From NCBI GenBank assembly GCA_021737695.1, contig JAIPDL010000003.1, forward strand, positions 1-64,000: a stretch of 64,000 bases of DNA, in the 5' to 3' direction. The translations under genes and the position numbers were made by a program. Shown piece by piece: positions 22,554 through 39,308 of the stretch. The notes beneath the pieces were generated by a model, which worked only from the letters and a program-made list of their open reading frames with translations, was not told the DNA's origin and ran no database searches. Position 1 is the first letter of the stretch. Each line of letters starts with the position of its first letter. The stretch comes from Desulfotignum sp. GTDB taxonomy: Bacteria > Desulfobacterota > Desulfobacteria > Desulfobacterales > Desulfobacteraceae.

Positions 22554-23321
22554 TTACCCGGTCACTTTGATCTTCACCCTGTCCAGTGCATGAACCACGT
22601 TGTCAAATCCACCACGTTCATCAATGGTGCTCATTGCCAGTTCATTCAGGCCGCCCCGTGTCATTGACTCCTTTATGAGTGAACGGATATCGCCATCTGC
22701 CGGTTGCTCGGCAATGAGTGACAATGCACCGAACATGGCTGTAGTATAATCCGTCGCATTTTTCCTGCCGATACCCTGATTCACTGCCCAGTCGGACACT
22801 GTATTCAGCAGGGCATAATACGGTGCCATCAAGGCTGTTACAATCGATAACGACTCCAGCTGCAGTTCACTGTCCACCACGATCACGGAACCCAGCACCT
22901 CAAACAGGCTGACCGCTGTTTCATTTTCAGGAAAAAGTGCTATGGGGCCTTTGTGGATGGCAACGCAGGGAAGCGGAACTGCCCGGATGACAGTGATACC
23001 CGGTTCGATCAATGGACTGATTTCAGAAATTTTCACGCCGGCCAGAAGATGGATAACCACCTGGCCGGATTTAAAATCCAGGTCTGCCAGGATTTTTTTC
23101 ATATCCTGTGGAAGAATGGCCAAGATCACCACATCGGAATGGTCCAGCACATCCTGATTGGATTCTCCTATTCTGACCCGGTCGAATCTCTTTTTCAACG
23201 CCAGAGACGTTTCCCTGTTCCTGGGCGATACCCGGATGACATCAAATTCGAGTTGCGATGTGCACAATCCGGCTACAATGGCAGATGTTATGCCTCCGGT
23301 ACCGATAAATCCTATGCGCAT
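22554..23321 (-). CDS. pyrroline-5-carboxylate reductase-like protein (ProC family)
   Basis: 255 residues from ATG 23321, which has GGAG upstream. The frame opens earlier (23414), but that part lies in the hairpin and is not credible. It begins MRIGFIGTGGITSAIVAGL, a Rossmann NAD(P) motif as in ProC. The middle has VIRAVPLPCVAIHKGPIALF, which resembles ProC RxMPN with Pro-Leu-Pro instead, and the C-terminal helical half has MTRGGLNE near the end, as in ProC (TPGGTT-like). The altered active-site strings suggest a substrate other than plain P5C, for example a hydroxylated or N-methylated imine. It is the last gene of the island. Confidence 0.75.
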   Translation of the reverse strand: MRIGFIGTGGITSAIVAGLCTSQLEFDVIRVSPRNRETSLALKKRFDRVRIGESNQDVLDHSDVVILAILPQDMKKILADLDFKSGQVVIHLLAGVKISEISPLIEPGITVIRAVPLPCVAIHKGPIALFPENETAVSLFEVLGSVIVVDSELQLESLSIVTALMAPYYALLNTVSDWAVNQGIGRKNATDYTTAMFGALSLIAEQPADGDIRSLIKESMTRGGLNELAMSTIDERGGFDNVVHALDRVKIKVTG

Positions 23322-23421: not shown

Positions 23422-24537
23422 CTAAACCCCTTCAATACTGGTTTCTTTGCCCTGAATCCCCCTGAGCAATGCACCGCGTGTCACCACGCCCACGCATTGG
23501 CCGCAGTCCATGATAGATATGTATTTTTTGTCTGTTCCCACCATGATATCGATCAGGGTATCCAGATCTGCATCCGGCGTCGATTCCGGACAATTTTCAA
23601 GTGACACCCCGGGATGATTTTTTTCAAAATATTCCGGGCCTTTCATGACTGTCTGGGCATAGACCAGGTGAAGCCTGGAAATGCCTGCCACAAAATCAGC
23701 TACATACGCATCCGCCGGATGGGTGACAATCTCTTCAGGGGTGCCGATCTGAACCAGAACCCCGTCCTTCATGATGGCAATCCGGTTGCCGATACGGATC
23801 GCTTCATCCAGATCATGGGTAATAAAAAGAGTGGTCTTGTTCATTTTTTCAGACAACTCAAGGAATTGATCCTGCAGCTGCCGCCGGATCAGGGGATCCA
23901 GAGCGCTGAACGGTTCGTCCATCAGAAGAATGCCCGGATCAGCGGCCAGGGCTCTGGCCAGCCCGACCCGCTGCTGCATGCCGCCGGACAGCTCATCTGG
24001 ATAACTCTCTCCCCATTCTGCCAAATGAACTGTTTCCAGCGCTTTCTGGGCCACCCGGTTTCTCTCTTCCCGGCTGATATGTCTCAATTCCAGGCTGAAC
24101 GCCACGTTCTGCCTGACATTTTTATGGGGCAGCAGGGCCATGTTCTGAAACACCATGCCGATTTTCTGTGACCGGACCTGGCGCAACTGCTCAAAACTCA
24201 TCTGGTTGATGTCCTGGCCTTCAATCAGCACACTGCCGGCCGTGGGATCAATCAACCGGTTGACATGGCGCACCAGTGTGGATTTTCCACTGCCGGACAA
24301 CCCCATGATGCAGAAGATCTCTCCCTGGTTGACCGAAAAACTGGCATCCACGACCCCCACACCGCATCCGAACCGTTCCAGCACCTGTTCCTTGTTCAGA
24401 TTTTCCTTTTTCATCGCCGCCAGGGCTTCCTGATCACGGGCACCGTATATCTTCCATAAATTACGGCATTCAATGGGAGGAATCCCCGGTTCCGGCGGTG
24501 GTCCGCAAGTGGTTTCTCTTTCTTTCATAACTGACAT
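23422..24537 (-). CDS. proV: quaternary-amine ABC importer ATPase (ProV/OpuAA type)
   Basis: 371 residues. Walker A is GLSGSGKST, the signature is LSGGMQQR and Walker B is ILLMDEPFSALD. The N-terminal extension (NLWKIYG, then KEQVLERFGCGVGVVD) is typical of ProV rather than of generic ATPases. The C-terminal region (about 290-365, ISIMDCGQCVGVVTRGALLR) is a shortened CBS-like part that senses ionic strength in osmotic homologues. The three importer genes are not consecutive (W, then ADH and HpbD, then X, V). The catabolic setting implies uptake of a betaine as food rather than as osmolyte. Confidence 0.93.
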   Translation of the reverse strand: MSVMKERETTCGPPPEPGIPPIECRNLWKIYGARDQEALAAMKKENLNKEQVLERFGCGVGVVDASFSVNQGEIFCIMGLSGSGKSTLVRHVNRLIDPTAGSVLIEGQDINQMSFEQLRQVRSQKIGMVFQNMALLPHKNVRQNVAFSLELRHISREERNRVAQKALETVHLAEWGESYPDELSGGMQQRVGLARALAADPGILLMDEPFSALDPLIRRQLQDQFLELSEKMNKTTLFITHDLDEAIRIGNRIAIMKDGVLVQIGTPEEIVTHPADAYVADFVAGISRLHLVYAQTVMKGPEYFEKNHPGVSLENCPESTPDADLDTLIDIMVGTDKKYISIMDCGQCVGVVTRGALLRGIQGKETSIEGV

Positions 24538-24569: not shown

Positions 24570-25601
24570 TTATTCAGCCGCGCGGCTGGCTTCCTGAATC
24601 CAGTGATCAAATGTCTCCTGGTTCCCGGCGATCCATTCATCCGCATGCCGGTGAATATCCTCGATTTTTTTCTCACCGTCTCTCATTTTCAGATTCTGTG
24701 CACCGATATCATTGATCGGAATCTGCGCCAGTTCAAAAAACCGTCTGGCAGCCGGATTGGCTTCCAGAAATTTATTATTGGCCAGCACATGGATCGAATT
24801 GACAGAGAACCCCAGGTTTTTACCGTCCGGCGTGACTGTATTGGCCCCTTTTTCTTCTTCCGGTAGATCGGTATGGGTCACGGCCAGCCAGGTCACATCT
24901 TCCCCGGGTACCAGCACACCACTCACCCATTGGGGAGACCATGTATAGTAAAGAATCGGTTCCCCGGATTTATACCGTGAAATGGTATCTGCAATCAGTG
25001 CAAAATAGGATCCCTGGTTATGGGTCACCGTCTCTTTCAGGTCATAGGCATCCATGTGATGCTCGATCACTCTTTCGCAGCCCCATCCCGGGTTGCACCC
25101 TGTCAGATCTGCCTTGCCGTCACCATTGGCATCAAAAATTTTTGCCAGATCCGGATCCGTCAGGTCGTTAATGGTTTTGATCCCGTATTGATCCGCTGTT
25201 TTCTTGTCGATAAGATATCCCTGGACAGCACCTTCCACAAGAGTCCCGACGCGGGTGACCTTGTCTTTTCCCCCGACTTTTTCATAAAACGCATCGTGCA
25301 TAGGAACCCAGGAATGGGCATTGTAATCCGCATCCCCCAGACCCACTGCCACATGCATGGAAGTGACTTCCAGTTCAAGAATTTTTTTGACCTTATAACC
25401 CAGTTTTTCCAACCCTTTGTTGACGATAACCAGCTGAAACAGTTCCTCGGCAATGCCGTTGTAACAGGGTTGGACCGTTTTTCCTTTTCCGGGAAAATCC
25501 GCCATGACCGGGCTGATGCTCAACATGCTGATCATTACAAGTGCAGCTGTTACGACCCCCATTGCTTTCCAGATACCAGCTGTTTGTTTCCTTGTTCTCA
25601 T
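24570..25601 (-). CDS. proX: betaine-binding periplasmic protein (ProX type)
   Basis: 343 residues with a clear Sec signal peptide (KAMGVVTAALVMISMLSISP, ending in VMA). The mature part resembles ProX: VQPCYNGIAEELFQLVIVNK, LGDADYNAHSWVPMHDAF and ILYYTWSPQW. The Trp and Tyr residues in the last two strings are candidates for the aromatic cage that binds quaternary ammonium. It delivers the substrate to ProW and ProV. Linked enzymes point to proline betaine or hydroxyproline betaine as ligand. That is inference. Confidence 0.93.
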   Translation of the reverse strand: MRTRKQTAGIWKAMGVVTAALVMISMLSISPVMADFPGKGKTVQPCYNGIAEELFQLVIVNKGLEKLGYKVKKILELEVTSMHVAVGLGDADYNAHSWVPMHDAFYEKVGGKDKVTRVGTLVEGAVQGYLIDKKTADQYGIKTINDLTDPDLAKIFDANGDGKADLTGCNPGWGCERVIEHHMDAYDLKETVTHNQGSYFALIADTISRYKSGEPILYYTWSPQWVSGVLVPGEDVTWLAVTHTDLPEEEKGANTVTPDGKNLGFSVNSIHVLANNKFLEANPAARRFFELAQIPINDIGAQNLKMRDGEKKIEDIHRHADEWIAGNQETFDHWIQEASRAAE

Positions 25602-25654: not shown

Positions 25655-26761
25655 TCAGTTGAAGGCCATCACCGGTTTCCCCCACATTGTGGTATCAGGC
25701 AGTATCCCCAGTCCGGGTCCCTTTGGCACCTCGATATGCCCGTTGACAATATTGATGCCATTCTCGGGATCATAGTTTTTTGCATTATACGGGGCTGCCA
25801 GCCAGGCCCCTTCAAACAAACCGGGCTCCACCGTAGCCCCCAAATGCACACAGGCCGCAGCAACAATATCACCGCCCCAGGCATCGTCACAGGTCATGGG
25901 TTTTTTCATTTCCCGGCACACCTCCCGGACCGTGAGCATCGCACTGATACCCCCCAGCCGGGTGACCTTGAACCCAAAACCGTCGGCCAGGTGATCGCTG
26001 ACCGCTTTCAGGACAATGCCCAGATTTTCCGTGTTTTCATCCAGATAAATGGGGTGGCAGACCCGGCCCTTCAGGGACATATTTTCTTCATAGGTATTGC
26101 AGGGCTGCTCCATGACAAACGCTGTTTTCCGGCAGGCAGAAGAAAGCAGCACCGCATCTCTGGTGGTCCAGCTGCGGTTGGCATCGGCTGCCAGACGGAT
26201 GCCGGGCTCCAAAATTTCAGACACCTTTCTGATCACCGCGATATCCTCTTCCAGGGACCGCCCCCCCACTTTGAGCTGAAGCCGCGGATACCCTTCCTTT
26301 TGTTTTTCTTTTGCAATGTCGACCGCTTCATCCACCGGGCAGACCCCGATGGAATAATAGGAAGGGATGGTCTCCCGCACGGCACCACCCAGAAGATCAC
26401 ATACCCTGGCACCGTAGAACTTGCCGCAGATATCCCACAGCGCCATATCCACGGCGGCTTTGGCATAATTGTGGCCATTGAGGCAGTGATCCATGGCCCG
26501 GTAGACATTTCTGAATGCCAGGGGATTCTGACCGATGAGATGGGGTCCCATCTCCTTTAGCGCGGCCCGGGCTCCCATGGCGTGCTGGGGCTGGTATACC
26601 GGTCCCACCGGACAGGTCTCCCCATAGCCTGTGATCTGTTTGTCAGTAATGATCTCCACAATGGTGGAATCAAAATGGTGCATCACCGTGTTTGACATGC
26701 GATAGGGTTTTCCCTTGATGGGGGTATCATACTGGTAAATGTTGATCTGTGCAATTTTCAT
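25655..26761 (-). CDS. hpbD: hydroxyproline-betaine/proline-betaine 2-epimerase-like enolase-superfamily protein
   Basis: 368 residues from ATG 26761. It belongs to the mandelate racemase/muconate lactonising group. The acid/base pair Lys164 (LQLKVGG) and Lys265 (GFKVTRLGG) and the metal ligands Asp193, Glu218 and Asp241 are all present. GETCPVGPVYQPQHAMGARA, GHNYAKAA, MEQPCNT and CDDAWGGDIVAAAC closely match what I remember of HpbD from Pelagibaca, which epimerises C2 of trans-4-hydroxyproline betaine and proline betaine. The betaine importer and MttB gene in the same cluster agree. The exact stereoisomer used here is not determined. Confidence 0.88.
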   Translation of the reverse strand: MKIAQINIYQYDTPIKGKPYRMSNTVMHHFDSTIVEIITDKQITGYGETCPVGPVYQPQHAMGARAALKEMGPHLIGQNPLAFRNVYRAMDHCLNGHNYAKAAVDMALWDICGKFYGARVCDLLGGAVRETIPSYYSIGVCPVDEAVDIAKEKQKEGYPRLQLKVGGRSLEEDIAVIRKVSEILEPGIRLAADANRSWTTRDAVLLSSACRKTAFVMEQPCNTYEENMSLKGRVCHPIYLDENTENLGIVLKAVSDHLADGFGFKVTRLGGISAMLTVREVCREMKKPMTCDDAWGGDIVAAACVHLGATVEPGLFEGAWLAAPYNAKNYDPENGINIVNGHIEVPKGPGLGILPDTTMWGKPVMAFN

Positions 26762-26765
26762 TGGG

Positions 26766-27875
26766 TTACCGCTCCGCCGGAGGTATGAGAACCAGTTTTC
26801 CGAAACAGGTTTTATTGATGAATTCCTGCTGGGCTTTGACAATCTCTTTGAGTGGATATGTCTTTGCAACCACCGGTTTGAAAAGGCCCTGCTCGATATA
26901 GCCAATCAGGTTTTCAAACACTTCATCCGTCTGAAATGTACACCCGAAAAATGTCAGATCCTTGAGATAAAGGGTCCGAAGATCCAGTTGAACCATGGGA
27001 CCGGCAATGGCGCCTGCCACGGCATACCGCCCACCCCGTTTCAGCAGGTCCAGAAGTCCGGCCCACTTCTCACCTCCCACCAGATCGATGACAACATCCA
27101 GGGATTCATGACCGAAAATATCTGCCGGGTCTGCATCCCGAAGGATGACCTGATCCGCGCCCAGGGCTTTTACGGCATCCGCTTTTGAGGCGGCAGCCAC
27201 TGCCATCACCTCAGCACCGCGGATTCCGGCCAGCTGCACCACAGCCGACCCGACCCCGCCCGACGCACCCGTGATCAGGACCCGGTCCCCGGATGTCACA
27301 CCGGACCGGTACAATAAATTTTCTGCCGTGGAACCGGCACAGGAAACAGCGGACAGCTCTGCATCGGTCAAATCGGTTTCAACCTTGTACACTTCAACGG
27401 ACGGTGCTTTTGTATACTGGGCAAATCCCCCGTCACATTCCGATCCAAATGTCCAGCATTCAAACGGCCTGAAATCACAGGGTGCCCGCATCAGATTGCG
27501 GACAATGACCCGTTCCCCGATCCGGGCCGGGTCCACCTGATCACCGGCCCCCACAATATATCCGCACACATCAGCGCCCTGGATGAGGGGAAAGGCCATG
27601 CCTTTGCCGGACCAGCCGCCATCGTCATCAACAGCCGGGGAAACCCCATGGTCTGCTCCGTCATTGGTGCCTGAAGAGACACTTTTGGAATACCAACCGA
27701 TCCGGGTATTGATATCGGTATTGTTCACGGCTGCCGCTGCCACCCGGATCAGCACTTCGTCGCTGCCGGGCAACGGTACCGGAACATCTTCACGGTATTC
27801 CAGTCTGTCAAAGCCGCCATGGCCGGTCAAGAGAACAGCGGCCATCTTTTCAGGAAGGGTTTCCCGGGTTTTCAT
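26766..27875 (-). CDS. zinc-type alcohol dehydrogenase/quinone oxidoreductase (MDR superfamily)
   Basis: 369 residues from ATG 27875, which overlaps the proW stop (ATGA). The MDR fold is clear: [12 protein letters not shown] in the catalytic domain and [18 protein letters not shown] as the nucleotide loop. Cys residues occur near 140-155 ([21 protein letters not shown]), but the classic four-Cys structural zinc loop is not intact, so it could be zinc-free. It could oxidise a ring or side-chain hydroxyl, or reduce a ketone or enone produced by the glycyl radical enzyme. Its place between importer genes implies co-expression with uptake. Confidence 0.85.
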
Positions 27876-28831
27876 TCGGTAAGCCCCTTTTTTTTGCGCC
27901 ACCATTTGATCACCATAAACACTGGACCTCTTTCATACCAGTGCCGGGTGCCCCGCAGCCGGGGGGCCTGACCCATGGCCTGGGTCAGGCGGTCCAGGGA
28001 AATGGCCATCAAAACGATACCAAGGCCTCCCACGGCTGCCTGTCCCACATCCAGACGACCGATGCCTCGAAGAACCATCTGTCCGAGCCCGCCCACAGCG
28101 ATCATGGAGGCCACGACCACCATGGACAATGACAGCATCAGGGTCTGATTGATTCCCGCCATGATGGTCCGCAGGGCCAGAGGGATCTTGATCTTGAACA
28201 TGATCTGTTTTTCAGTGGCCCCAAACGCATACGCCGCCTCGATCACATCGTAAGGAACCTGGTGGATACCCAGCACCGTAAGGCGGATCAACGGCGGCAA
28301 AGCGAACGTGATGGTCACGATGATCCCGGGCACGTTTCCCACGCCGAAAAGCATGACCACCGGAATCAGGTATACAAACGACGGGGTTGTCTGCATCGCA
28401 TCCAGCACCGGCCGGACCAGCTTTTCAATTTTTTCACTCCTGGATATAATGATGCCCAGGGGCAGACCGGTCAGCACGCAGAAAAACACGGCCGTGATCA
28501 CCAGAGCCAGCGTAGTCATCGCCTCTGCCCACGCCCCCACAAGCCCGATCACCGCCATGGAGATCAGAACGAACAGGGTGGTTCTTCTGTCAGACACCTG
28601 CCAGCCCACCAGCCATGCGATCACCATCATCACCAGCTGGGGGATCGATTGGAGCACCCGTTCGATATTCACCAGCACATAGTCCACCGGCATCCTGAGC
28701 AGCTGGAAAAACCAGCGATAATTTTCCACCAGCCAGCTCAGTAATTCATCCATCCAGATGTTGAACGGGATGACAAACAATTCGAATGGATTCAATAAAA
28801 TCTGCCAGATTGTCGCATCACCTTCTAACAC
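27872..28831 (-). CDS. proW: betaine ABC importer permease (ProW type)
   Basis: 319 residues from a GTG at 28831, chosen because AAGGAG lies about seven bases upstream. The frame opens at a TTG at 28891, but that lies within the promoter. Five to seven membrane segments follow an N-terminal soluble region with a paired helix ([20 protein letters not shown]). The coupling-helix motif is in [20 protein letters not shown], as in E. coli ProW. It forms the channel with ProV and ProX. It is the first gene of the second transcription unit. Confidence 0.92.
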
Positions 28832-28886
28832 GAGAGACTCCTTCCTGTTTTGAAGTTCTTCCCATTGCGGGTTGTGCCAGTGACTC

Positions 28887-28902
28887 TGCAATGATCATAC
28901 CA
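28887..28902 (-). promoter_or_regulatory. sigma-54 promoter (-24/-12) for the importer unit
   Basis: On the minus strand TGGTATGATCATTGCA has GG and GC at the required ten-base separation. It matches TGGCAYG-N4-TTGCA except at the fourth and sixth positions of the -24 box. The predicted start near 28877 gives a leader of about 46 bases to the proW GTG. The spacing is identical to the promoter at 37439, which supports it. Confidence 0.65.
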
Positions 28903-29134: not shown

Positions 29135-30547
29135 TTAAATTGACCGGACATAGGCATCAAGATCTTTTTCAATGGCCGGTGGCAGTTCCGGGGGAATATA
29201 CTCCTGAACAATTTTTTTCCAGGTGTTGTTCGCTTTTACCGCCAAATCCCTGTCATCTGATTTCGCCCATTTTTCATACCCGGACCTGTCGCTCAACCGG
29301 GGCCGAAAAAACTCTGTTTTAAAATGCCGGAACGTATGCGGGCTGGCCAGGTAATGCCCGCCCGGCCCCACCTGCCCAATGGCATCAATTCCCAATGTTT
29401 CGGGTGTGACGGTTACCCCCTGTTTGATCCGCCGGGCCATGCCGCACATTTCATCATCAATGACAAACTTTTCATAGGACATGCAGTTGATGGACTCCAA
29501 GGCCCCGGCCGCATGAAGGACCATGTTCAGGCCGCAGGACACTGCACTGGTCAGGTTCATCATGGATTCATACGCTGATTGATTCCCCACCTGTTTGGCT
29601 TCGGTCAATGCACCTACGGCCCGGCTGGGCAGATTATAAAATCGGGCCATCTGGGCCGTCATGATGTTGTTCAGCGCCATTTCCGGCGCGCCCACCGCCA
29701 GTGCACCGGTCCGCATATCCGCACAGGTGGAGGCCCCGCCGTATACCACCGGGGTCCCTTCCCGGATCAGCTGAGTCAGAACGATCCCGGCCAGGATTTC
29801 CGCGTTTTCCACCACCAGGGTGCCGGCCAGGGTTACCGGGGCCGTGGCACCGGCGATCCCTAAAGAATTGACAATCACCGGCTGACCGGCTTGGGCATAC
29901 CCTATCAGGCATTCCAGCATGGACTGGTCATACTTCAGCGGTGTCAGAGAGCAGGGAATGCTGATCACCCTGGCTTTTTCCGGCAGGTTTGCCTTATCGA
30001 TCCCGAAAAGCCGGGCCACCATGTTCATGGTTTCTTCGGCCCCGGCCCGGCCCATGGCCCCGCCCATGAAACATTTGTCCGTATATTTCATGGTGGCAAA
30101 AAGCATCTTGACATTGCGCTGCGCAATGGGGATATCCGAGGGCTCGATCAGGATGTTGCTGGACATGTCCAGATGGTTGCTGTGACCGGTGAGTTTGACA
30201 AAATTTTCAAAATCCGCCAAGGTACCGTATCGTCTACCATGGTCCAGATCAGACACAAATGGCGGACAGTTGGCAGGAAGAAACAAAGAGTGATCTCCCC
30301 CGACCATCACGTCATTTTCAGGATTTCGGGCATGGAGGCGGAACCGGGCCGGTGGTTTGGCAATCAGCGTTTCCACCAGTTTCTGCGGAAAAAACACCCG
30401 GTGCCCGTCCACTTTGGCCCCTGCTCTGGAAAGCAGGTCCCGGGCTGGCGGATACAGCATATCCAATCCCACCGTCTCCATGACATGCAGCGTGGCTTCA
30501 TGCACCCGGGCCACATCAGATTCAGACAATATTTCAAAATAGGTCAT
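29135..30547 (-). CDS. mttB: MttB-family methyltransferase, non-pyrrolysine (betaine:corrinoid methyltransferase)
   Basis: 470 residues with RBS AGGAG before ATG 30547. It has the MttB/TIM-barrel pattern: HVMETVGLDMLYP, FMGGAMGRAGAEET, LGIAGATAPVTLAGTLV, VYGGASTCADMRTGAL and VGPGGHYLASPHTFRHF at the C terminus. In pyrrolysine MttB an in-frame TAG lies in the barrel. Here that region (ALTEAKQVGNQSAYE) reads through without stop, so it belongs to the MtgB/MtpB-like group that demethylates glycine betaine, proline betaine or carnitine. The corrinoid acceptor protein, its activase and a methyl-THF methyltransferase are not in the window and must be supplied from elsewhere. Confidence 0.9.
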   Translation of the reverse strand: MTYFEILSESDVARVHEATLHVMETVGLDMLYPPARDLLSRAGAKVDGHRVFFPQKLVETLIAKPPARFRLHARNPENDVMVGGDHSLFLPANCPPFVSDLDHGRRYGTLADFENFVKLTGHSNHLDMSSNILIEPSDIPIAQRNVKMLFATMKYTDKCFMGGAMGRAGAEETMNMVARLFGIDKANLPEKARVISIPCSLTPLKYDQSMLECLIGYAQAGQPVIVNSLGIAGATAPVTLAGTLVVENAEILAGIVLTQLIREGTPVVYGGASTCADMRTGALAVGAPEMALNNIMTAQMARFYNLPSRAVGALTEAKQVGNQSAYESMMNLTSAVSCGLNMVLHAAGALESINCMSYEKFVIDDEMCGMARRIKQGVTVTPETLGIDAIGQVGPGGHYLASPHTFRHFKTEFFRPRLSDRSGYEKWAKSDDRDLAVKANNTWKKIVQEYIPPELPPAIEKDLDAYVRSI

Positions 30548-30561
30548 GATCCGACTCCTGA

Positions 30562-31326
30562 TCAGTAAACCGGTTTGGCACCGGTGACTTCAATGGTGGC
30601 CCCGGCGATATACCGGGCCGCATCCGAGGCCAGAAAAGCCATGACCTCGGCAATCTCTTCGGGTTCGGCAATCCGTCCGATGGGCACTGTGCCGTTGAGC
30701 TGCTCAATGGCTTTATCCGGATCCAGGCCCCGCTTGGAAAAACCGGTTTTCAGCATGGGCGTGTTCACTTCATTGGGGCAGACTGCATTCACCCGGATGT
30801 TGTCTCCGGCATGATCCCGTCCCAAATTTTTTGTCAGTGCGGCCACGGCCCCTTTGCTGGTGCAATAGGCCAGGTGCCCGGGTCCCGGATACACCCCCCA
30901 GGCGGAAGAGGTGTTGACAATGGCGCCGCCCCCCTGTTTCTTCATCTGTAAGATGCCGGCCCGGGACAGATAAAACACGGCCGTCAGATTGATGTTCAAT
31001 GCGGCAAACCACATCTCATCCGTGGTTTCAAGAATGTTGCCCCGGGGGATGACCCCGGCGTTATTCAACAGAATATCCAAAGATCCGAAGGCCTTGACAG
31101 TATGATCCACCAGGTTTTCGCAATAAGCTTTGTCCGCCAGGTCTCCACAGAGATATGCGGCCTCACCCCCATGGGCCTTTATTTCCGAACAGATCTCTTT
31201 GCATCCCTTTTCCGACAGATCCGCCACCATGACCCGGGCGCCTTCTTGGGCAAAGATACGGACAGCGGCTTTTCCGATTCCACCGGCACCGCCGGTGATC
31301 AGCACTGTTTTTCCTTTAAAACGCAT
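30562..31326 (-). CDS. SDR oxidoreductase 1
   Basis: 254 residues from ATG 31326, preceded by GAGGAG. It is a classical short-chain dehydrogenase: TGGAGGIGKAA (NAD(P) loop), NNAGVIPRG, Ser in VNTSSAWG, and the catalytic Tyr-Lys in YCTSKGAVAAL. The acidic residue after strand 2 (MVADLSEKG) suggests NAD preference. It is one of three tandem SDRs between mttB and the activase gene. A plausible role is oxidation of the ring hydroxyl or of an oxo/hydroxy acid product. The specific reaction is unknown. Confidence 0.88.
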   Translation of the reverse strand: MRFKGKTVLITGGAGGIGKAAVRIFAQEGARVMVADLSEKGCKEICSEIKAHGGEAAYLCGDLADKAYCENLVDHTVKAFGSLDILLNNAGVIPRGNILETTDEMWFAALNINLTAVFYLSRAGILQMKKQGGGAIVNTSSAWGVYPGPGHLAYCTSKGAVAALTKNLGRDHAGDNIRVNAVCPNEVNTPMLKTGFSKRGLDPDKAIEQLNGTVPIGRIAEPEEIAEVMAFLASDAARYIAGATIEVTGAKPVY

Positions 31327-31367: not shown

Positions 31368-32120
31368 TTACTGACAGGTAAATCCGCCATCCACCATCAG
31401 GCTGGTGCCCGTGAGGTACCCTGCATCGGATGAGGCCAGAAAAGCGATGGACCTGGCGATCTCTTCAGGTGTTCCCATCCGCTGAAGCGGAATCTTTTCT
31501 TTCCACACCTGTGCCATCTGCTCTCTTGTCACCGGATTCTCATGCTGGGAAAACGGCATGGGCGTGTCGGTCGCCCCCGGACAGACAGCATTCACCCGGA
31601 TGTTGTCTTTTGCACAGTCCAGGGCCATGGACTGGGTCATTTGAATGACCGCCCCCTTGCTGGTGCTGTAGGCCACCAGGGTTTCACGGCCCACAAACCC
31701 GTTGATGGAGGAGACATTGACAATGGCCCCGCCTTTCCCGCAATTCCGCATCACCTGTACCGCCTGCCTGGCCAAAAAAAACGGGGCATCCACATTGATG
31801 GCCATGATGGATCGCCACTGTTCATCCGTAGTGTCGCAAATATCTGCCCGAACAATGGCCCCGGCATTGTTGATGAGTACATCCAGCCGCCCTCTGGCAG
31901 CCACGATCTCCTGGATGATCTGTCCACAGGTTTCAGACCGGGTGATATCCGCCGTGGAATGGTAGAATGCGCCGGTCTGCCCTGCCACTTCCCGGGTCCG
32001 GTGCGGATCCCGGCCCACCAACGCCAGCAGGCCCCCTTCTTGGGCCATGCACTTTGCCGTGGCCTTTCCGATGCCGCCGGAAGCGCCGGTGAGCAGGATG
32101 ACTTTGTCTTTAAATCTCAT
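31368..32120 (-). CDS. SDR oxidoreductase 2
   Basis: 250 residues from ATG 32120. The longer frame up to 32291 lies inside the neighbouring SDR gene and is not real. Motifs are TGASGGIGKATA, NNAGAIVRA, Ser in VNVSSINGF and the catalytic pair in YSTSKGAVIQM. The first codons overlap the stop of SDR 3 by 11 bases, so translation is coupled. It is about as different from SDR 1 and SDR 3 as they are from each other, so the three are not recent copies and probably act on different steps or stereoisomers. Confidence 0.88.
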   Translation of the reverse strand: MRFKDKVILLTGASGGIGKATAKCMAQEGGLLALVGRDPHRTREVAGQTGAFYHSTADITRSETCGQIIQEIVAARGRLDVLINNAGAIVRADICDTTDEQWRSIMAINVDAPFFLARQAVQVMRNCGKGGAIVNVSSINGFVGRETLVAYSTSKGAVIQMTQSMALDCAKDNIRVNAVCPGATDTPMPFSQHENPVTREQMAQVWKEKIPLQRMGTPEEIARSIAFLASSDAGYLTGTSLMVDGGFTCQ

Positions 32121-32904
32121 ATTTCTTTTCCATGGCATCAAAATCTGCAAGCGTCGGGCGGGCAGTGCGCCCGCCATCCACGACAAACTGCTGGCCGGAC
32201 ACAAAACCGGCCTGGTCGCTGGCCAGCCAGCAGACCATGTTGGCGATGTCCTCTGGCGTGCCCATCCGGCCCACGGGATGAAGCTTTTCAATGGCTTTTA
32301 TACCCTGTTCCGGATACTTGAGCTGGTCAAAATAGGCGGCGTTCAGTTCCGTATTGATCCATCCGGGACAGACAGAATTGCACCGCACCCGGCTGCGGTG
32401 ACCTTCATCCACAGCAACGGCCCGGGTCATGGCATGAACTGCTCCTTTGGAAGCGGCATAGGCCGTGTGCATGGGATTGTTCACAATGCCTTCGATGGAA
32501 CCGATATTGACGATGGCCCCGCCCCCGCTTTCCCGCATGGGAGCCAGCGCATATCTGCTGCACAGAAACACACCCTTGACATTGATATTCATCATACGGT
32601 CCCAGTCTTCTTCAGCTGTTTCTTCCATCAACCGCTCAAACATGATCCCAGCATTGTTCACCAGAATGTCCAGCCGCCCGTATCTGTCCACAACATCCTG
32701 AATCACCTGCCGGACCGACCCGGCGTCCGACACATCCAGCCGCATATAGGAAAGGGACGAGGTCTCCTTATCATCCAGACCGGCATCCATAACATCGCCG
32801 ATGACCACGAAGGCCCCTTCATCACACAATTTCTGAGCGATCGAACGTCCGATTCCCCGGGACCCGCCAGTCACCACAGCAACCTTGTCTTTTACCATGT
32901 CCAT
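32110..32904 (-). CDS. SDR oxidoreductase 3
   Basis: 264 residues, with AAAGGAGA just before ATG 32904. Motifs are TGGSRGIGRSIA, NNAGIMFER, a Ser-containing VNIGSIEGIV and the catalytic Tyr-Lys in YAASKGAVHAM. It lies directly downstream of the glycyl radical activase. The position right after the radical enzyme genes suggests it may act on the immediate product, or prepare the substrate by inverting or oxidising the hydroxyl group. That is inference from order only. Confidence 0.88.
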   Translation of the reverse strand: MDMVKDKVAVVTGGSRGIGRSIAQKLCDEGAFVVIGDVMDAGLDDKETSSLSYMRLDVSDAGSVRQVIQDVVDRYGRLDILVNNAGIMFERLMEETAEEDWDRMMNINVKGVFLCSRYALAPMRESGGGAIVNIGSIEGIVNNPMHTAYAASKGAVHAMTRAVAVDEGHRSRVRCNSVCPGWINTELNAAYFDQLKYPEQGIKAIEKLHPVGRMGTPEDIANMVCWLASDQAGFVSGQQFVVDGGRTARPTLADFDAMEKKYEI

Positions 32905-32930: not shown

Positions 32931-33845
32931 TTAACCGCCGATTCTTACGTCAAAAATTCCCTGTGACACCAACACCGCCTTCAACCTCTCCACCTGTTCC
33001 CGCGAAGGCGAATCAATTTCATTCAACGCATATGATCTTCCGATCACAAAATAGGTCGATACGCCATACCGGTGATACGGCAACAGCTCGATCCGCTTCA
33101 GGGTTTTAAGGCCCGCAGCAAACTGCCCTGTCTTTTGAATATTGTCCTTTGAATCATTTTTTCCCGGAATCACCGGAATTCTCAGGATCAGGTCCAGATC
33201 CGGGTATTGTTTATCCAGCCGCTGAATATTATCCAGAATCCGTTGATTGCCTTTTCCAGTCAATGCCTTGTGCGCTGACATATCCATGTGTTTGACATCC
33301 ACATAGACCAGATCCAGATGGTCCAGTATGCCGGCAAACGCGGGCCAGTCTCCATATGCAGAGGTTTCCACGGCCGTGTGAAACCCCATCTGTACTGCCC
33401 TTTCAAGGATCCGGGCGGAAAACAGCGGCTGACAGATCGGATCTCCGCCGCTGAGCGTGACTCCTCCTTCAGACCGGTGGTAAAACACAGCGTCTTTTTC
33501 CAGCTCTGTCACCACCTCATCCACCGTGACTTTTCCGCCGATCATTTTTCTGGCCTGATACAGACAGGCACGGACACAATCCCCGTTGTTCGTGCAGGCT
33601 TCAAAGTGCTGAAGGATATTTCTATTTTTGTCTTTTCCAATGGCCTTGGACCGGCACACGTCCACACAGGCGCCGCATGCCACGCATTTTTCCTGCCAGA
33701 AACCGATTTCCGGTATCAATTTCTGAGATTCCGACGAAGAACACCAGACACAGGCCAGAGGACATCCTTTCAAAAAGATGACCGTCCGGATCCCAGGGCC
33801 GTCATACACGGCCAGCCGTTCGATTTTGTAGATCACGCCTTCCAT
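32931..33845 (-). CDS. glycyl radical enzyme activating enzyme (radical SAM)
   Basis: 304 residues. The radical SAM cluster is in GCPLACVWCSS (C-x3-C-x2-C), near residue 28. Two extra ferredoxin-like cysteine sets follow (CVACGACVDVC and CTNNGDCVRAC), which is usual for activases of eliminase/dehydratase/decarboxylase-type GREs and absent from the formate-lyase activase. The glycine-rich GGVTLSGGDP is the SAM-binding strand. It generates the glycyl radical on the enzyme encoded 19 bases upstream, using S-adenosylmethionine and a low-potential electron donor. Confidence 0.95.
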   Translation of the reverse strand: MEGVIYKIERLAVYDGPGIRTVIFLKGCPLACVWCSSSESQKLIPEIGFWQEKCVACGACVDVCRSKAIGKDKNRNILQHFEACTNNGDCVRACLYQARKMIGGKVTVDEVVTELEKDAVFYHRSEGGVTLSGGDPICQPLFSARILERAVQMGFHTAVETSAYGDWPAFAGILDHLDLVYVDVKHMDMSAHKALTGKGNQRILDNIQRLDKQYPDLDLILRIPVIPGKNDSKDNIQKTGQFAAGLKTLKRIELLPYHRYGVSTYFVIGRSYALNEIDSPSREQVERLKAVLVSQGIFDVRIGG

Positions 33846-33864: not shown

Positions 33865-36306
33865 TCAGCTGCAGCAGGCCCCGGACAGGCGGTTGTCGGA
33901 TTTGTAACTCAAAACTGTTCTGCCGATGATTTCATCCTGGACATCTCTGCCCAGTTCCACAAAATAGGCGGTGTATCCGGCCACCCGGATCAGGAGATCC
34001 CGGTATTTTTCCGGTTCCTTCTGGGCCGCCCGGAGAGTATCAGCAGACACTACATTGAACTGGACATGGTAAATCCCCAGATCACACATGCTCCGGATCA
34101 GCCACATGAGATTCCGAAGCCCTCTGTCATCGGCCACAAACGACGGATCCAGTTTCATGTTGAGCAGGGTGCCGGATACAAACATATCATGGGGAATTCT
34201 GGATACCGATTTCAGGACGGCTGTGGGGCCGTTCACATCAGTCCCCCCTGTGGGCGACAATCCGTCGGTCAGCGTGGTCCAGGCCAGTCGTCCGGACGGC
34301 AGGGCACCCACCACATGCCCTAAGGGCACATGGGCGGTCACCGGCAAAATTCCGCTGATCATCCTGCCGTGAACCGTGTCATACCGGTCGATCTCATCAG
34401 CCATGAACGCAAACATCTCTGATGCGATATCGTCACAGGAAGGAATGTCATTGCCATATTTATGGGCTGTCAGACACAGCTGCCGGACATCGTCAAACCC
34501 TTTGAAATCGGATTCAAGGGCGGACAGCAAACGATCCCAGGTGAGTGTTTTTTCTTCATAGATCAATTGATTCACGGCGGACAGGCTGTTGATGAAATCC
34601 GCGATCCCGTCCAGGATGATGCCGTTGCCCGTGGAATATTTCGCCCCTCCCCAGGCATAGTCGGTGGCGGATGCCACACATTCCTTGAAGGTCAGGGATG
34701 CCACAGGCACAGGCCGCTCATTCCAGGTAGTTTCAAGGACGCTGTTGGCTTCCACGATCACCTGGATGATGCGGGCCACCTGTTTTTTAACCGCGGTTTT
34801 GAAATCATCGAATGTATCAAATGACCGGGGGTCTCCGGTTCTGACTCCAAGATTTTCCCCGGTTTTTCTGAACACCCCGTCCGTCATGGCGAACTCCACC
34901 ACACTGCCCAGGTTGACGTCCGCAATGGCCGTGTATCCCCGTAATTTTCCCATCAAGTTGGTTTCCACGCACCCGCAGGGATTCCAATTGTAGGCCTCCT
35001 TCAGGGTCACCCCTTTTTTCAGGAGCATCTTGATGCCTACCTCGTCGTTGTGGATTGCGGGAAACCCCGTGCCTTCTTTGACCAGTTCCGCGATTTTTCT
35101 CAAAAAAGAAACTGGATTTTTTCCGGCATGGTAGCGCACCGACAGGGACGGCTGATAGAGTTTGACCTCCTTCATGGCCTGGAGCATCATGTATGACAGC
35201 TCATTGACCGCGTCCTGACCGTTTTCATCGATTCCGCCGCAGCAGGCATTCTGGAACATGTTATATCCGCTGGCAAACTCGGCGGTCTTGCCGTCCTGGA
35301 ACAGACAGGGTTCGGCGTATTTGATCCACAGGCAGTCAAACAGTTCCTGGGCCTGATCATCCGTCAACCGTCCCGCAGCCTTGTCTTTCTTGTAAAACGG
35401 GTACAGATACTGGTCCATACGCCCCGGATTGTAGGATGCCGCGTTCTGTTCCATAAATACGCAGATATGGTACAGATAAACCGATTGAACAGCTTCTCTG
35501 AACGTCTCGGCCGGATGGGCCGGCACCCGGTCACATACCTGTGCGATCTCTTCCAGTTCCGCTTTTCTTTCCGGATTTTTTTGCAAGGCCGCCAGGCGCC
35601 GGGCCTCCTTCGCATATCGGGCTGCCAGGGTTAAAATCCCCTCACAGCTGATCAGAAGGGACCTGAGATATGTCTGTCTTTCATACCCGTTGGGGGCACT
35701 CAACTCGCTTTGTTCCAGCAGCTCTTCCACCCATTTCTGAATGCCGCTGATGCCGTCTTCCAGGAGCCAGTCAAAACCGGGGGTCAGTTCGCCGGGTCCT
35801 CTGACCGCTTTCCGGTCAATGTAGATGATGGCATTGTCCCTGAGACCGGCTACACTGTCCGGAATCCGTTTGAGCCATTTTTCAAAGACCGATTTGTTTT
35901 TCCAGTAGGGCTTGATCACGTCGGTAAACAGTTTCTTGTCTTTCTCTGTCACCCTGAAAGGGTCAAACGGTCGGTCATTCATGGTATCCAACTCATTGTC
36001 CATGACCGACCAGCAAACGTCCGCACTGAGAATGCCCCCCCGGGTTCTGCTTCCGGAACACCCCACAATCAGTTCATCCTCCCATATGGTGACGGTTTTC
36101 CGGCGGCACTGTTCCCGGAACGCTTTGGCTTTTCTGAGCACCAGGGGCTCTCCTTGGGTTTCCATGAAACTTTTTGTCAGAATTGCCGCATTCTCCAGAT
36201 CGATGGCCGGCCGGGTGGACAGTACCCGGTCTTTGAGCTTTTCGATACGCTGCATGTAGGATATGGCTGCGTCACTCTGGTTATATTGTACTGCGGGTTG
36301 ATTCAT
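33865..36306 (-). CDS. glycyl radical enzyme of the HypD/CutC-like eliminase-dehydratase group
   Basis: 813 residues from ATG 36306 with AGGAG eight bases upstream. The thiyl-radical loop is GCVET (Cys446, Glu448 from this start) and the glycyl loop is RVAGYTAYF (Gly777). The substrate-barrel string ASYNPGRMDQYLYPFYK is typical of the group. CutC and glycerol dehydratase usually read GCVEP. GCVET is what I recall for trans-4-hydroxyproline dehydratase (HypD). Linkage to HpbD, MttB, a proline racemase and ProC-like reductase points to a hydroxyproline or N-methyl-hydroxyproline derivative as substrate, either dehydrated to a pyrroline or opened at the C-N bond. Which of these it does is open. 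Confidence 0.92.
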   Translation of the reverse strand: MNQPAVQYNQSDAAISYMQRIEKLKDRVLSTRPAIDLENAAILTKSFMETQGEPLVLRKAKAFREQCRRKTVTIWEDELIVGCSGSRTRGGILSADVCWSVMDNELDTMNDRPFDPFRVTEKDKKLFTDVIKPYWKNKSVFEKWLKRIPDSVAGLRDNAIIYIDRKAVRGPGELTPGFDWLLEDGISGIQKWVEELLEQSELSAPNGYERQTYLRSLLISCEGILTLAARYAKEARRLAALQKNPERKAELEEIAQVCDRVPAHPAETFREAVQSVYLYHICVFMEQNAASYNPGRMDQYLYPFYKKDKAAGRLTDDQAQELFDCLWIKYAEPCLFQDGKTAEFASGYNMFQNACCGGIDENGQDAVNELSYMMLQAMKEVKLYQPSLSVRYHAGKNPVSFLRKIAELVKEGTGFPAIHNDEVGIKMLLKKGVTLKEAYNWNPCGCVETNLMGKLRGYTAIADVNLGSVVEFAMTDGVFRKTGENLGVRTGDPRSFDTFDDFKTAVKKQVARIIQVIVEANSVLETTWNERPVPVASLTFKECVASATDYAWGGAKYSTGNGIILDGIADFINSLSAVNQLIYEEKTLTWDRLLSALESDFKGFDDVRQLCLTAHKYGNDIPSCDDIASEMFAFMADEIDRYDTVHGRMISGILPVTAHVPLGHVVGALPSGRLAWTTLTDGLSPTGGTDVNGPTAVLKSVSRIPHDMFVSGTLLNMKLDPSFVADDRGLRNLMWLIRSMCDLGIYHVQFNVVSADTLRAAQKEPEKYRDLLIRVAGYTAYFVELGRDVQDEIIGRTVLSYKSDNRLSGACCS

Positions 36307-36351
36307 TGTGTTTTTCTCCTTGATCCGGGTCATTGCCCTTTGGTTTTTTTG

Positions 36352-37362
36352 TTAAAGGAAGCTGAAACCATGCTTCAACGGATCATTCTGGTCCACGACA
36401 AACGTATGCATGCCCGTGACATAGGCACTGCCGGTGACATCACTGATAACGGCTGGAAACTGTGCAACCCGGGTTTCTTCTAGCACTCTTGCTTTGAACA
36501 CCGTGCCGGTGGTAGCACTTTCATGGCCGAAAACCTCGTTGATTTTCAATTGATCTCTGGCATACAACTGGGCAAGTTTGGCGCAGGTACCTGTACCACA
36601 GGGAGAACGACTGACAGATCCCGGCGGGATGACAACCGCATTTTTCAATGTACCGTCCGGATGATCGGAGGGCCCGGAGAAAAGAACGTGGGTGGCTTTC
36701 GTGATATAGGGCATTTCCGGATGATATACTTCCACCTGACGGTTCACGGCATCTCTGATCTTTGTCCCCAGATGAATCAGTTGTTTAATATTTTTTACGG
36801 TCAGGTCCACCCCCAGGTCCGAGGCTTCGACAATGGAATAATAAAGCCCCCCGAATGCCAGATCCACCCTGATATCACCGATACCGGGCAGATCAACCGG
36901 GATATCTTTTTGAAAAAGAAATGCCGGGGCATTGGTAAAGGTCACTTGTTTTGCGACTCCCTGCTCGACGTCCACCTTTGCCTTCACCACACCTGCCGGC
37001 GTATCCAGACTTATCGTTGTAACCGGTTCCTGCACTTCAACCATACCACTTTGGACCAGTGCCGTTGCCACCCCGATGGTATCGTGGCCGCACATGGTCA
37101 GATACCCCCCGACTTCAATATAGATAACCCCGATGTCGGTACCGGGCTTGCAGGGCTCTGTCAGAATGACACCGGACTGAACGTCATTGCCACGTGGTTC
37201 AAACATGAGAATCCTGCGGATCCAGTCCCGGTTTTCCTTCAGATACACCATTTTCTCCGGAATGGTTTTGCCGGGGATCATGGGGACACCGCTGGTGACA
37301 GTTCGGGTGGGGTCTCCACACGTGTGTGTATCAATTGTTGTAAACATTTTTTCAAATTTCAT
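36352..37362 (-). CDS. proline racemase-family epimerase (proline/4-hydroxyproline)
   Basis: 336 residues. Both catalytic cysteines are present: Cys91 in MCGHDTIGVAT and Cys255 in SPCGTGTCAK. This argues for a racemase or 2-epimerase (proline racemase or 4-hydroxyproline 2-epimerase) rather than a trans-3-hydroxyproline dehydratase, which lacks the second Cys. It is cofactor-free and cytoplasmic. It is the first gene after the sigma-54 promoter. Together with the enolase-fold HpbD it gives the cluster two unrelated C2 epimerases, one suited to the betaine and one to the demethylated amino acid. Confidence 0.92.
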   Translation of the reverse strand: MKFEKMFTTIDTHTCGDPTRTVTSGVPMIPGKTIPEKMVYLKENRDWIRRILMFEPRGNDVQSGVILTEPCKPGTDIGVIYIEVGGYLTMCGHDTIGVATALVQSGMVEVQEPVTTISLDTPAGVVKAKVDVEQGVAKQVTFTNAPAFLFQKDIPVDLPGIGDIRVDLAFGGLYYSIVEASDLGVDLTVKNIKQLIHLGTKIRDAVNRQVEVYHPEMPYITKATHVLFSGPSDHPDGTLKNAVVIPPGSVSRSPCGTGTCAKLAQLYARDQLKINEVFGHESATTGTVFKARVLEETRVAQFPAVISDVTGSAYVTGMHTFVVDQNDPLKHGFSFL

Positions 37363-37438: not shown

Positions 37439-37454
37439 TGCAACCCTCGTGCCA
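37439..37454 (-). promoter_or_regulatory. sigma-54 promoter (-24/-12) for the racemase-GRE-MttB unit
   Basis: On the minus strand TGGCACGAGGGTTGCA is a perfect match to TGGCACG-N4-TTGCA. The predicted start near 37428 gives a leader of about 66 bases to the racemase ATG. The regulator gene immediately upstream encodes a sigma-54 activator, so promoter and regulator support each other. Confidence 0.88.
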
Positions 37455-37640: not shown

Positions 37641-39308
37641 TCAGGACATATTTTTTCGAAAGGATTCTTTTACAATTGCATATTTTTTTATTTTATAATT
37701 CAATAATTGACGAGAGATGGAGAGATTCCGTGCAGCGAGCGTAATGTTGCCGCCTGCATCGGAAAGGCTTTTTTCGATTTTATTTTTTTCAAGATCTTCA
37801 AGGATCTTATCCCTGTCTATGCCATGTTTTTTAATTTTTTTATGCAAAGTCTGGCGGGCTATATTCAATTTTTCAGATGTTTTTTTTACATTCCCCAGAC
37901 AATTGATCAACGCACGGACAATCATTTCTTTTTCCCGGGTGTCATCTTCCATGCCGTTTTTTACAGCCCCTACAGCGCATATGTCTTTACTGTTCAAAGA
38001 TATTTCACCGGTGGTTTTCTCCCGCCCGATTTTTCCTGGAAGTATCCGGGTTTTTTCTTGAATGAAAAGGTCCTCCGTTTCTTCACTGAAAATTAATTCA
38101 GAGGCAATATGACGGCGCTGGACCAAACGGCTGTTACCAACCATATTCATGGCCCCTTCAATAAGGTTTTCAAGCTCCCTGACATTTCCCGGCCAGGCAT
38201 ATACCTGGAAATGTTTTTTCAATTCTGCCGACACCCCCCTGACTTTTTTGTTCAATGTCCGGTTGTGTTTTTTTATAAAAAAGTCGGTTAGTGCATCCAT
38301 ATCTCCCCTCCGGTCCCGCAGGGGCGGAATGGCCAGAAAAACAACACCCAGCCGATAAAAAAGATCTTTTCTAAGGCTTCCGCCGGCGATCACTTTTTGC
38401 GGTATCTCATTGGTCGAACTGATAATTTTCAAATCCAGTACGATTTCCTTGCTCGCCCCCAGCCGCCTGACCTTTTTTTCCTGAACCACCCTGAGCAGCT
38501 TGGCCTGAAGCCCGATGGGCATGGAATTGATCTCATCCAGAAAAACAGTGCCGCCGTTTGCCTGTTCCAGCAATCCGGGTTTTTCCATTGCGCCGGTGTA
38601 GGCCCCTTTTGTAGAACCAAAAAGGATACCCTCCAAAAGCGTTTCCGGGATCGCCGCACAATTAACCGCCATATAAGAAGCAGGCTTGCGAAAACTGAAA
38701 TTATGGATGGCCTGGGCAAACAACTCTTTTCCGGTCCCTGTCTCCCCGTACAGCATAATAGGAGAAGGTGAATTGGATGCCAGTTTCGCCTTGTTCAGAA
38801 TCTCTATCATCGGCCGTGTAGAACCGATAATGCTCTTGAATGTAAACCGGGTCTCATTCTGAATCGGCACTTTTTTATATGACCCATCGACCTTCTTGAT
38901 AATGCCGTCCAAATATTCATAATCCTTGACAAAACAGACGGCCCCGACCAGCTGACCGTTCTTCCTGATCGGATAATTACTGTTGATACTATTCACAACT
39001 CTGCCGTTTCTGGCAGTGTATATGTGGTTGTAATTGATAATGGCTTTATTGTGCTTCAGGCAGCGCATGATCGTGCTGGAATTCTCATCCAGATCATAGA
39101 CATCCACCATTTTCCGGCCAATCACATTTTTATAGTCAAGGCCGTCCATCTTGGCGTGGGTCTTGTTGTAATAAAGGATGGATCCATGTTTATCCGCCAT
39201 AAGTATTCCCTGGTCAATGGCCTCTAAAATGGGGAAAAAATCTCCGGAAGTGATATCAATATACAGGTCTTCTTCAGATTTTTTCATTTTTTTCCGAAAT
39301 TCTGACAT
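37641..39308 (-). CDS. sigma-54-dependent transcriptional activator with PAS sensor and two Fis-type helices
   Basis: 555 residues. An N-terminal PAS domain (about 22-140, ILEAIDQGILMADKHGSILY) precedes an AAA+ domain with Walker A GETGTGKE, the sigma-54 contact loop GAYTGA (Tyr for the usual Phe) and Walker B GGTVFLDEI. The C terminus has two consecutive Fis/HTH_8 motifs: GNVKKTSEKLNIARQTLHKK and GNITLAARNLSISRQLLNYK. Most relatives, such as RocR, have one. The PAS domain may bind the amino acid or betaine. It lies in the same direction as the island and very likely activates both -24/-12 promoters. Confidence 0.92.
   Translation of the reverse strand: MSEFRKKMKKSEEDLYIDITSGDFFPILEAIDQGILMADKHGSILYYNKTHAKMDGLDYKNVIGRKMVDVYDLDENSSTIMRCLKHNKAIINYNHIYTARNGRVVNSINSNYPIRKNGQLVGAVCFVKDYEYLDGIIKKVDGSYKKVPIQNETRFTFKSIIGSTRPMIEILNKAKLASNSPSPIMLYGETGTGKELFAQAIHNFSFRKPASYMAVNCAAIPETLLEGILFGSTKGAYTGAMEKPGLLEQANGGTVFLDEINSMPIGLQAKLLRVVQEKKVRRLGASKEIVLDLKIISSTNEIPQKVIAGGSLRKDLFYRLGVVFLAIPPLRDRRGDMDALTDFFIKKHNRTLNKKVRGVSAELKKHFQVYAWPGNVRELENLIEGAMNMVGNSRLVQRRHIASELIFSEETEDLFIQEKTRILPGKIGREKTTGEISLNSKDICAVGAVKNGMEDDTREKEMIVRALINCLGNVKKTSEKLNIARQTLHKKIKKHGIDRDKILEDLEKNKIEKSLSDAGGNITLAARNLSISRQLLNYKIKKYAIVKESFRKNMS

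Follow-up and report, generated by a model that had tools for sequence, protein, structure and literature searches.

Several glycyl radical enzymes (GREs) that act on hydroxyproline or on quaternary amines have been described. HypD carries out a radical dehydration of the hydroxyproline ring and is partnered by a pyrroline-5-carboxylate (P5C) reductase, CutC is a choline trimethylamine-lyase, and HplG (7vua) is a C-N lyase of trans-4-hydroxy-D-proline. Two further structures carry the titles 'N-Methyl-cis-4-hydroxy-L-proline dehydratase in Intestinibacter bartlettii' (PDB 8id1) and 'N-methyl-Cis-4-hydroxy-D-proline dehydratase in Clostridium sp. FS41' (8iof). From their matching titles, we take both to be the structures of the characterising paper of Jiang et al. 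2024 (ACS Catal 14:4407). An HpbD pathway is known from aerobic marine bacteria (HpbD-type structures 4e8g, 4h2h, 2pmq), and its 2-epimerase has a counterpart in the operon described below. In the marine route, demethylation is oxygen-dependent.

Here we describe a GRE, P0001, encoded within a 64,000 nucleotide stretch of a Desulfotignum contig (the window). P0001, an oxygen-sensitive radical enzyme, is very probably an N-methyl-4-hydroxyproline dehydratase of the 8id1 family, and would catalyse the radical reaction in an operon for the anaerobic use of hydroxyproline betaine. Its gene is one of 13 lying on one strand from 37362 to 22554, mostly with short gaps, in the order proline racemase family, GRE, activase, three SDRs, MttB, ProW, zinc dehydrogenase, HpbD-like, ProX, ProV and ProC-like (Table 1). 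Compared with the 8id1 system, the operon adds HpbD, the SDRs and sigma-54 control; compared with the aerobic HpbD pathway, it has MttB and a GRE, and its host is probably an anaerobe.

Table 1. Features of the GRE operon and its control region in the window, with the residues of P0001 referred to in the text.
Feature	Position	Strand	Remarks
PAS/sigma-54-dependent activator	37641..39308	-	precedes operon; homologues before GRE in L003, L007, L009/L113, L060, L112
Sigma-54 (-24/-12) promoter-like site TGGCACGAGGGTTGC	37440..37454	-	about 78 nt before racemase
Proline racemase / 4-hydroxyproline 2-epimerase family	36352..37362	-	Cys in both catalytic motifs (MCGH, PCGTG)
GRE P0001, predicted N-methyl-4-hydroxyproline dehydratase	33865..36333	-	822 aa, complete, unbroken frame
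P0001 catalytic residues	Cys455, Glu457, Gly786		
P0001 pocket	Arg174, Glu182, Ala299, Ala354, Met359, Phe360, Asp472, Val665		
GRE activating enzyme, radical SAM	32931..33845	-	TIGR02494 315.6 bits vs cut-off 174; 19 nt downstream of GRE
SDR oxidoreductase 1	32110..32904	-	S-x12-Y-x3-K intact; 78% in L003/L110
SDR oxidoreductase 2	31368..32120	-	S-Y-K intact; no separate copy in L003/L110
SDR oxidoreductase 3	30562..31326	-	S-Y-K intact; 85% in L003/L110
MttB-superfamily methyltransferase, predicted hydroxyproline-betaine demethylase	29135..30547	-	no in-frame stop, non-pyrrolysine type
ProW-like betaine ABC permease	27872..28891	-	
Zinc-type medium-chain dehydrogenase	26766..27875	-	70% in L003
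HpbD-like (hydroxy)proline-betaine 2-epimerase, predicted	25655..26761	-	enolase superfamily
ProX-like betaine-binding protein (OpuAC)	24570..25601	-	
ProV-like ABC ATPase	23422..24537	-	
P5C-reductase family, ProC-like, predicted reductase of GRE product	22554..23321	-	NF005063 263 bits vs cut-off 254; ends operon

The initial annotation had recognised a GRE with a GCVET loop, and the match to PF02901 (645 bits, 1.3e-193) bears this out; its start at 36306 is the second ATG (Met10), and the first ATG lies at 36333. Cys455 and Glu457 lie in the Cys loop, NWNPCGCVETNL, and Gly786 in the glycyl loop, RVAGY. A single-sequence AlphaFold prediction reached a pLDDT of 37 and was replaced by a model based on a 48-row alignment of relatives, which shows the GRE fold with a pLDDT of 91. 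With the PF02901 fold, a C-x-E loop, an RVxGY loop and a partner activase, P0001 belongs to the GRE eliminase group.

P0001 is nearest to the two N-methyl-4-hydroxyproline dehydratases in both sequence and structure. A phmmer search against the PDB gave 1038 bits for 8id1 (54-55% identity), 869 for 8iof (47%), 693 for CutC (about 37%), 532 for glycerol dehydratase, 516 for HypD (34%) and 388 for HplG (30%), the last being lower than most other GRE eliminases. Structure comparison of the model returned Z scores of 54.8 for 8iof, 53.4 for 8id1 (rmsd 1.1 A over 779 residues), 50.3 for HypD and 48.1 for HplG. In a maximum likelihood tree of 54 GREs, P0001, 8id1 and 8iof formed one group (SH-aLRT 100; 91 without 8iof), HypD fell into a separate group (SH-aLRT 100), the CutC group also stood apart, and the Desulfobacterota branch containing P0001 had an SH-aLRT of 98. 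The best NCBIfam score was that of the CutC model, yet at 692 bits it lay below the cut-off of 1050, and the HypD model reached 627 bits against a cut-off of 1100. On these comparisons P0001 is most likely a new member of the known N-methyl-4-hydroxyproline dehydratase family, and the Desulfobacterota branch with its gene set looks like a variant within it. The initial annotation had regarded tight clustering in a characterised GRE family of different substrate as evidence against its reading. Such clustering was largely found: the family acts on the N-methyl amino acid, the compound expected from demethylation of the betaine by MttB.

Pocket residues were compared by alignment at HypD positions 152/160/278/334/339/340/436/450/645, which read R-E-A-A-M-F-E-D-V in P0001, R-E-A-S-M-F-E-D-V in 8id1 and F-H-D-S-D-F-E-Y-T in HypD. 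Besides the catalytic Cys and Gly, P0001 and 8id1 share eight of the nine positions, differing by Ala in place of Ser at 334. The other N-methyl enzyme, 8iof, likewise has Glu at 160 and Val at 645, but has Lys at 152, Ser at 278, Thr at 340 and Glu at 450, where P0001 has Arg, Ala, Phe and Asp, respectively. Relative to HypD, only Phe360 (Phe340) and Glu457 (Glu436) are kept; Arg174 stands for Phe152, Glu182 for His160, Ala299 for Asp278, Ala354 for Ser334, Met359 for Asp339, Asp472 for Tyr450 and Val665 for Thr645. Since H160Q, D278N, D339N and S334A abolish the activity of HypD and Y450F and T645A greatly reduce it (PMC7077986), P0001 is not a normal HypD. Glu182 aligns with Asp216 of CutC, which stabilises the trimethylammonium group of the substrate (PMC12451663). 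Loss of the HypD base Asp278, which lies beside the amine, together with a Glu at the place of CutC Asp216, fits an N-methylated amine substrate, and Arg174 may be the ligand of its carboxylate. The CVE motif is common to P0001, HypD and CutC, and the loop around it reads SGCVETG in HypD, GCVEP in CutC and glycerol dehydratase, and GCVETN in both N-methyl enzymes (8id1, 8iof) and in the close relatives inspected. GCVET was therefore rejected as a marker of HypD, the whole 8id1 group carrying the loop: the initial annotation had rightly assigned it to HypD, with GCVEP in the lyase and diol dehydratases, but it does not single out HypD. Its view that the enzyme is no ordinary HypD held good, with Ser334, Asp278, Asp339 and His160 all replaced.

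The neighbouring genes named in the initial annotation, MttB and HpbD, are likewise present, and its view that they point to hydroxyproline betaine is supported. The closest solved protein to MttB is a glycine betaine methyltransferase (471 bits), and the HpbD-like protein scores 457 bits to 4e8g and 382 to 4h2h/2pmq, with the next group at 256, so that its closest solved structures are of the HpbD type. The exact sigma-54 motif TGGCAC-N5-TTGC occurs once in the window (0.13 expected), between the activator gene and the operon, and the identical motif also precedes the GRE in L003 and L112. The racemase-family gene is the first after this site and is absent from the related operon L003/L110. 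The zinc dehydrogenase fits into none of the pathway steps proposed below.

No corrinoid protein gene was recognised within the operon; three candidates are located elsewhere in the genome (G000), which has one Pterin_bind and three B12-binding_2 matches. The same genome has 17 matches to PF06253 (MttB superfamily), some of them fragments, which suggests broad quaternary-amine demethylation. For an in-frame TGA in the MttB homologue of G000:C93 no recoding is claimed, since it is apparently a normal stop codon where the gene borders on that of a corrinoid protein. A second GRE of the genome (L002, G000:C13:22866-24815) has LCMSPG at the Cys loop instead of GCVE, presumably resembling alkyl/benzylsuccinate synthase-type enzymes.

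A scan of the genomes of 84,980 species yielded about 20 close relatives of P0001 (54-84%), the next being at about 41%. Those from Desulfobacterota adjoin betaine transporters (ABC or BCCT) and MttB, with HpbD as well in L003 and L007, an HpbD-like frame near the GRE in L111, and in L060 a cluster of GRE, activase, MttB and a BCCT betaine transporter. The Desulfobacteraceae contig L003/L110 has the order GRE, activase, SDR1, SDR3, MttB, ProW, dehydrogenase, HpbD, ProX, ProV, ProC, without the racemase and SDR2; SDR1 and SDR3 are thus conserved in both species. HpbD was found in 2 of 98 related genomes, both having this operon. Among the nearest relatives of 8id1, a Lactonifactor cluster (L012) comprises ProC, MttB, GRE, activase and a transporter, and the ProC subfamily of the window also occurs in L004 and L005 (after GRE and activase) and in L110 (at the operon end). 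Of 24 family loci, 6 have MttB close to the GRE, as against none of the 58 loci of other GREs (Fisher p=4e-4, a rough value because the contigs are unequal in length and the species related). HypD adjacency showed no enrichment over the other GRE loci, many of these control loci being themselves HypD. In several Bacillota the family gene is divergent to a genuine HypD (L011: 1116 bits to 6vxc), with a racemase-family gene near, and hence the family member does not substitute for HypD.

Some further gene groups were also noted. In L112 an aconitase X gene (14297-15559), of the family of cis-3-hydroxy-L-proline dehydratase, shares a cluster with a betaine ABC transporter and the GRE, a hint that 3-hydroxyproline isomers are handled there too. 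In the Bacillota clusters L017 (14347-15612, minus strand), L016, L019 and L020 a conserved protein of ~420 aa adjoins the racemase, and it matched no Pfam or NCBIfam family at the thresholds applied. Uncharacterised GREs form groups at 40-46% identity (L115 (G014:C34), L116, L117 and L022:9914-12361), and no close solved member was seen; their loops read GCVEP, His takes the place of HypD Tyr450, and they lie near ABC transporters or a DAO/ETF pair.

Taken by its gene content, the operon looks like a near-complete anaerobic hydroxyproline-betaine pathway. ProXWV would import hydroxyproline betaine, HpbD would epimerise C2, and the SDRs may invert C4 via a 4-oxo intermediate. MttB would then transfer one N-methyl group to a corrinoid protein. 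In the GRE, the glycyl radical at Gly786 and the thiyl at Cys455 would allow abstraction of a hydrogen from C5 beside the tertiary amine, whereupon the C4 hydroxyl would depart with the assistance of Glu457, while Arg174 would contact the carboxylate and Glu182 would pair with the N-methylammonium. The predicted product, N-methyl-pyrroline-5-carboxylate, would be reduced to N-methylproline by the ProC-like enzyme. Demethylation would precede dehydration by analogy with HypD, since in the HypD route the lone pair of an amine adjacent to C5 assists the dehydration, and the quaternary betaine has no such pair. The initial annotation had the GRE act on the quaternary betaine itself; the titles of the nearest solved structures, both N-methyl-cis-4-hydroxyproline dehydratases (L and D), do not favour this.

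The isomer dehydrated by P0001 is less certain, as 55% identity to 8id1 does not fix it. It is conceivable, though the weaker supposition, that P0001 acts on an isomer other than that of 8id1, either N-methyl-trans-4-hydroxy-L-proline or N-methyl-cis-4-hydroxy-D-proline, and that this is a separate specificity of the well-supported Desulfobacterota branch. Consistent changes beside the pocket distinguish this branch from 8id1 and the Bacillota members of the family, with RGWGETT of 8id1 becoming RGPGELT and LPVSGNT becoming LPVTAHV; the changes include PGE and TxH, resembling PGH and TxH of HypD. HpbD was found in the Desulfobacterota branch only, and L060 and L112, where no HpbD or SDR was seen nearby, would have to use the imported isomer directly. 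Against this, the compared first-shell positions all equal those of 8id1 except 334, and P0001 has Phe360 and Asp472 where the D-enzyme 8iof has Thr and Glu. By its title 8id1 acts on the cis-L isomer; trans-L is the common natural form of hydroxyproline, and HpbD would turn its betaine into cis-D, not cis-L, a point against the isomer of 8id1. A source of cis-L might be the SDR genes, as the two conserved SDRs could invert C4 via a 4-oxo form; a human SDR, BDH2, interconverts 4-oxo-L-proline and cis-4-hydroxy-L-proline (PMC8914325, PMC11840923). In the most far-reaching reading, which is less likely than not, the Desulfobacterota branch would represent a third N-methyl-hydroxyproline dehydratase specificity, and the operon would provide every step for anaerobic breakdown of trans-4-hydroxy-L-proline betaine, with HpbD and an SDR pair resetting C2 and C4 before demethylation by MttB and radical dehydration.

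It is improbable that the GRE instead opens the ring of hydroxyproline betaine, or of its N-methyl product, between C5 and N to give an amino-4-ketopentanoate, on the models of CutC with choline and HplG with trans-4-hydroxy-D-proline. The C4-OH/C5-N+ unit does resemble choline, Glu182 occupies the CutC Asp216 position, and CutC gives the top NCBIfam score. However, direct C-N lysis would leave ProC and the demethylation by MttB without a purpose and would call for a subsequent step of the thiolase type, and a P5C-reductase-family gene ends the operon. No 2-amino-4-ketopentanoate thiolase gene of the HplG-type route was seen in the operon, every gene of which belongs to another family, and the directon holds no ring-opening partner. 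The nearest relatives are dehydratases by title, and HplG, sharing the GRE fold and a related substrate, is distant (388 vs 1038 bits for 8id1). The initial annotation had considered direct ring cleavage chemically reasonable and as possible as dehydration; neither such cleavage nor the equal weighting is supported here, and the evidence for a dehydratase rather than a C-N lyase is good but indirect. Least likely, and strongly disfavoured, is an ordinary HypD acting on free trans-4-hydroxy-L-proline: the GCVET loop and the ProC and proline racemase neighbours would agree with it, but the low identity and model score, the replaced HypD residues and the Bacillota genomes with a genuine HypD beside the family member all speak against it.

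As an N-methyl-4-hydroxyproline dehydratase, P0001 would assign a reaction to a GRE otherwise annotated as formate acetyltransferase or HypD. In what is probably a sulfate reducer, the operon would link corrinoid demethylation and radical dehydration with a betaine 2-epimerase that is known from aerobic bacteria. For hydroxyproline betaines, a kind of osmolyte, it suggests a definite anaerobic fate that can be tested. Within the family, it provides a set of proteins in which GRE stereospecificity might be traced to few positions.
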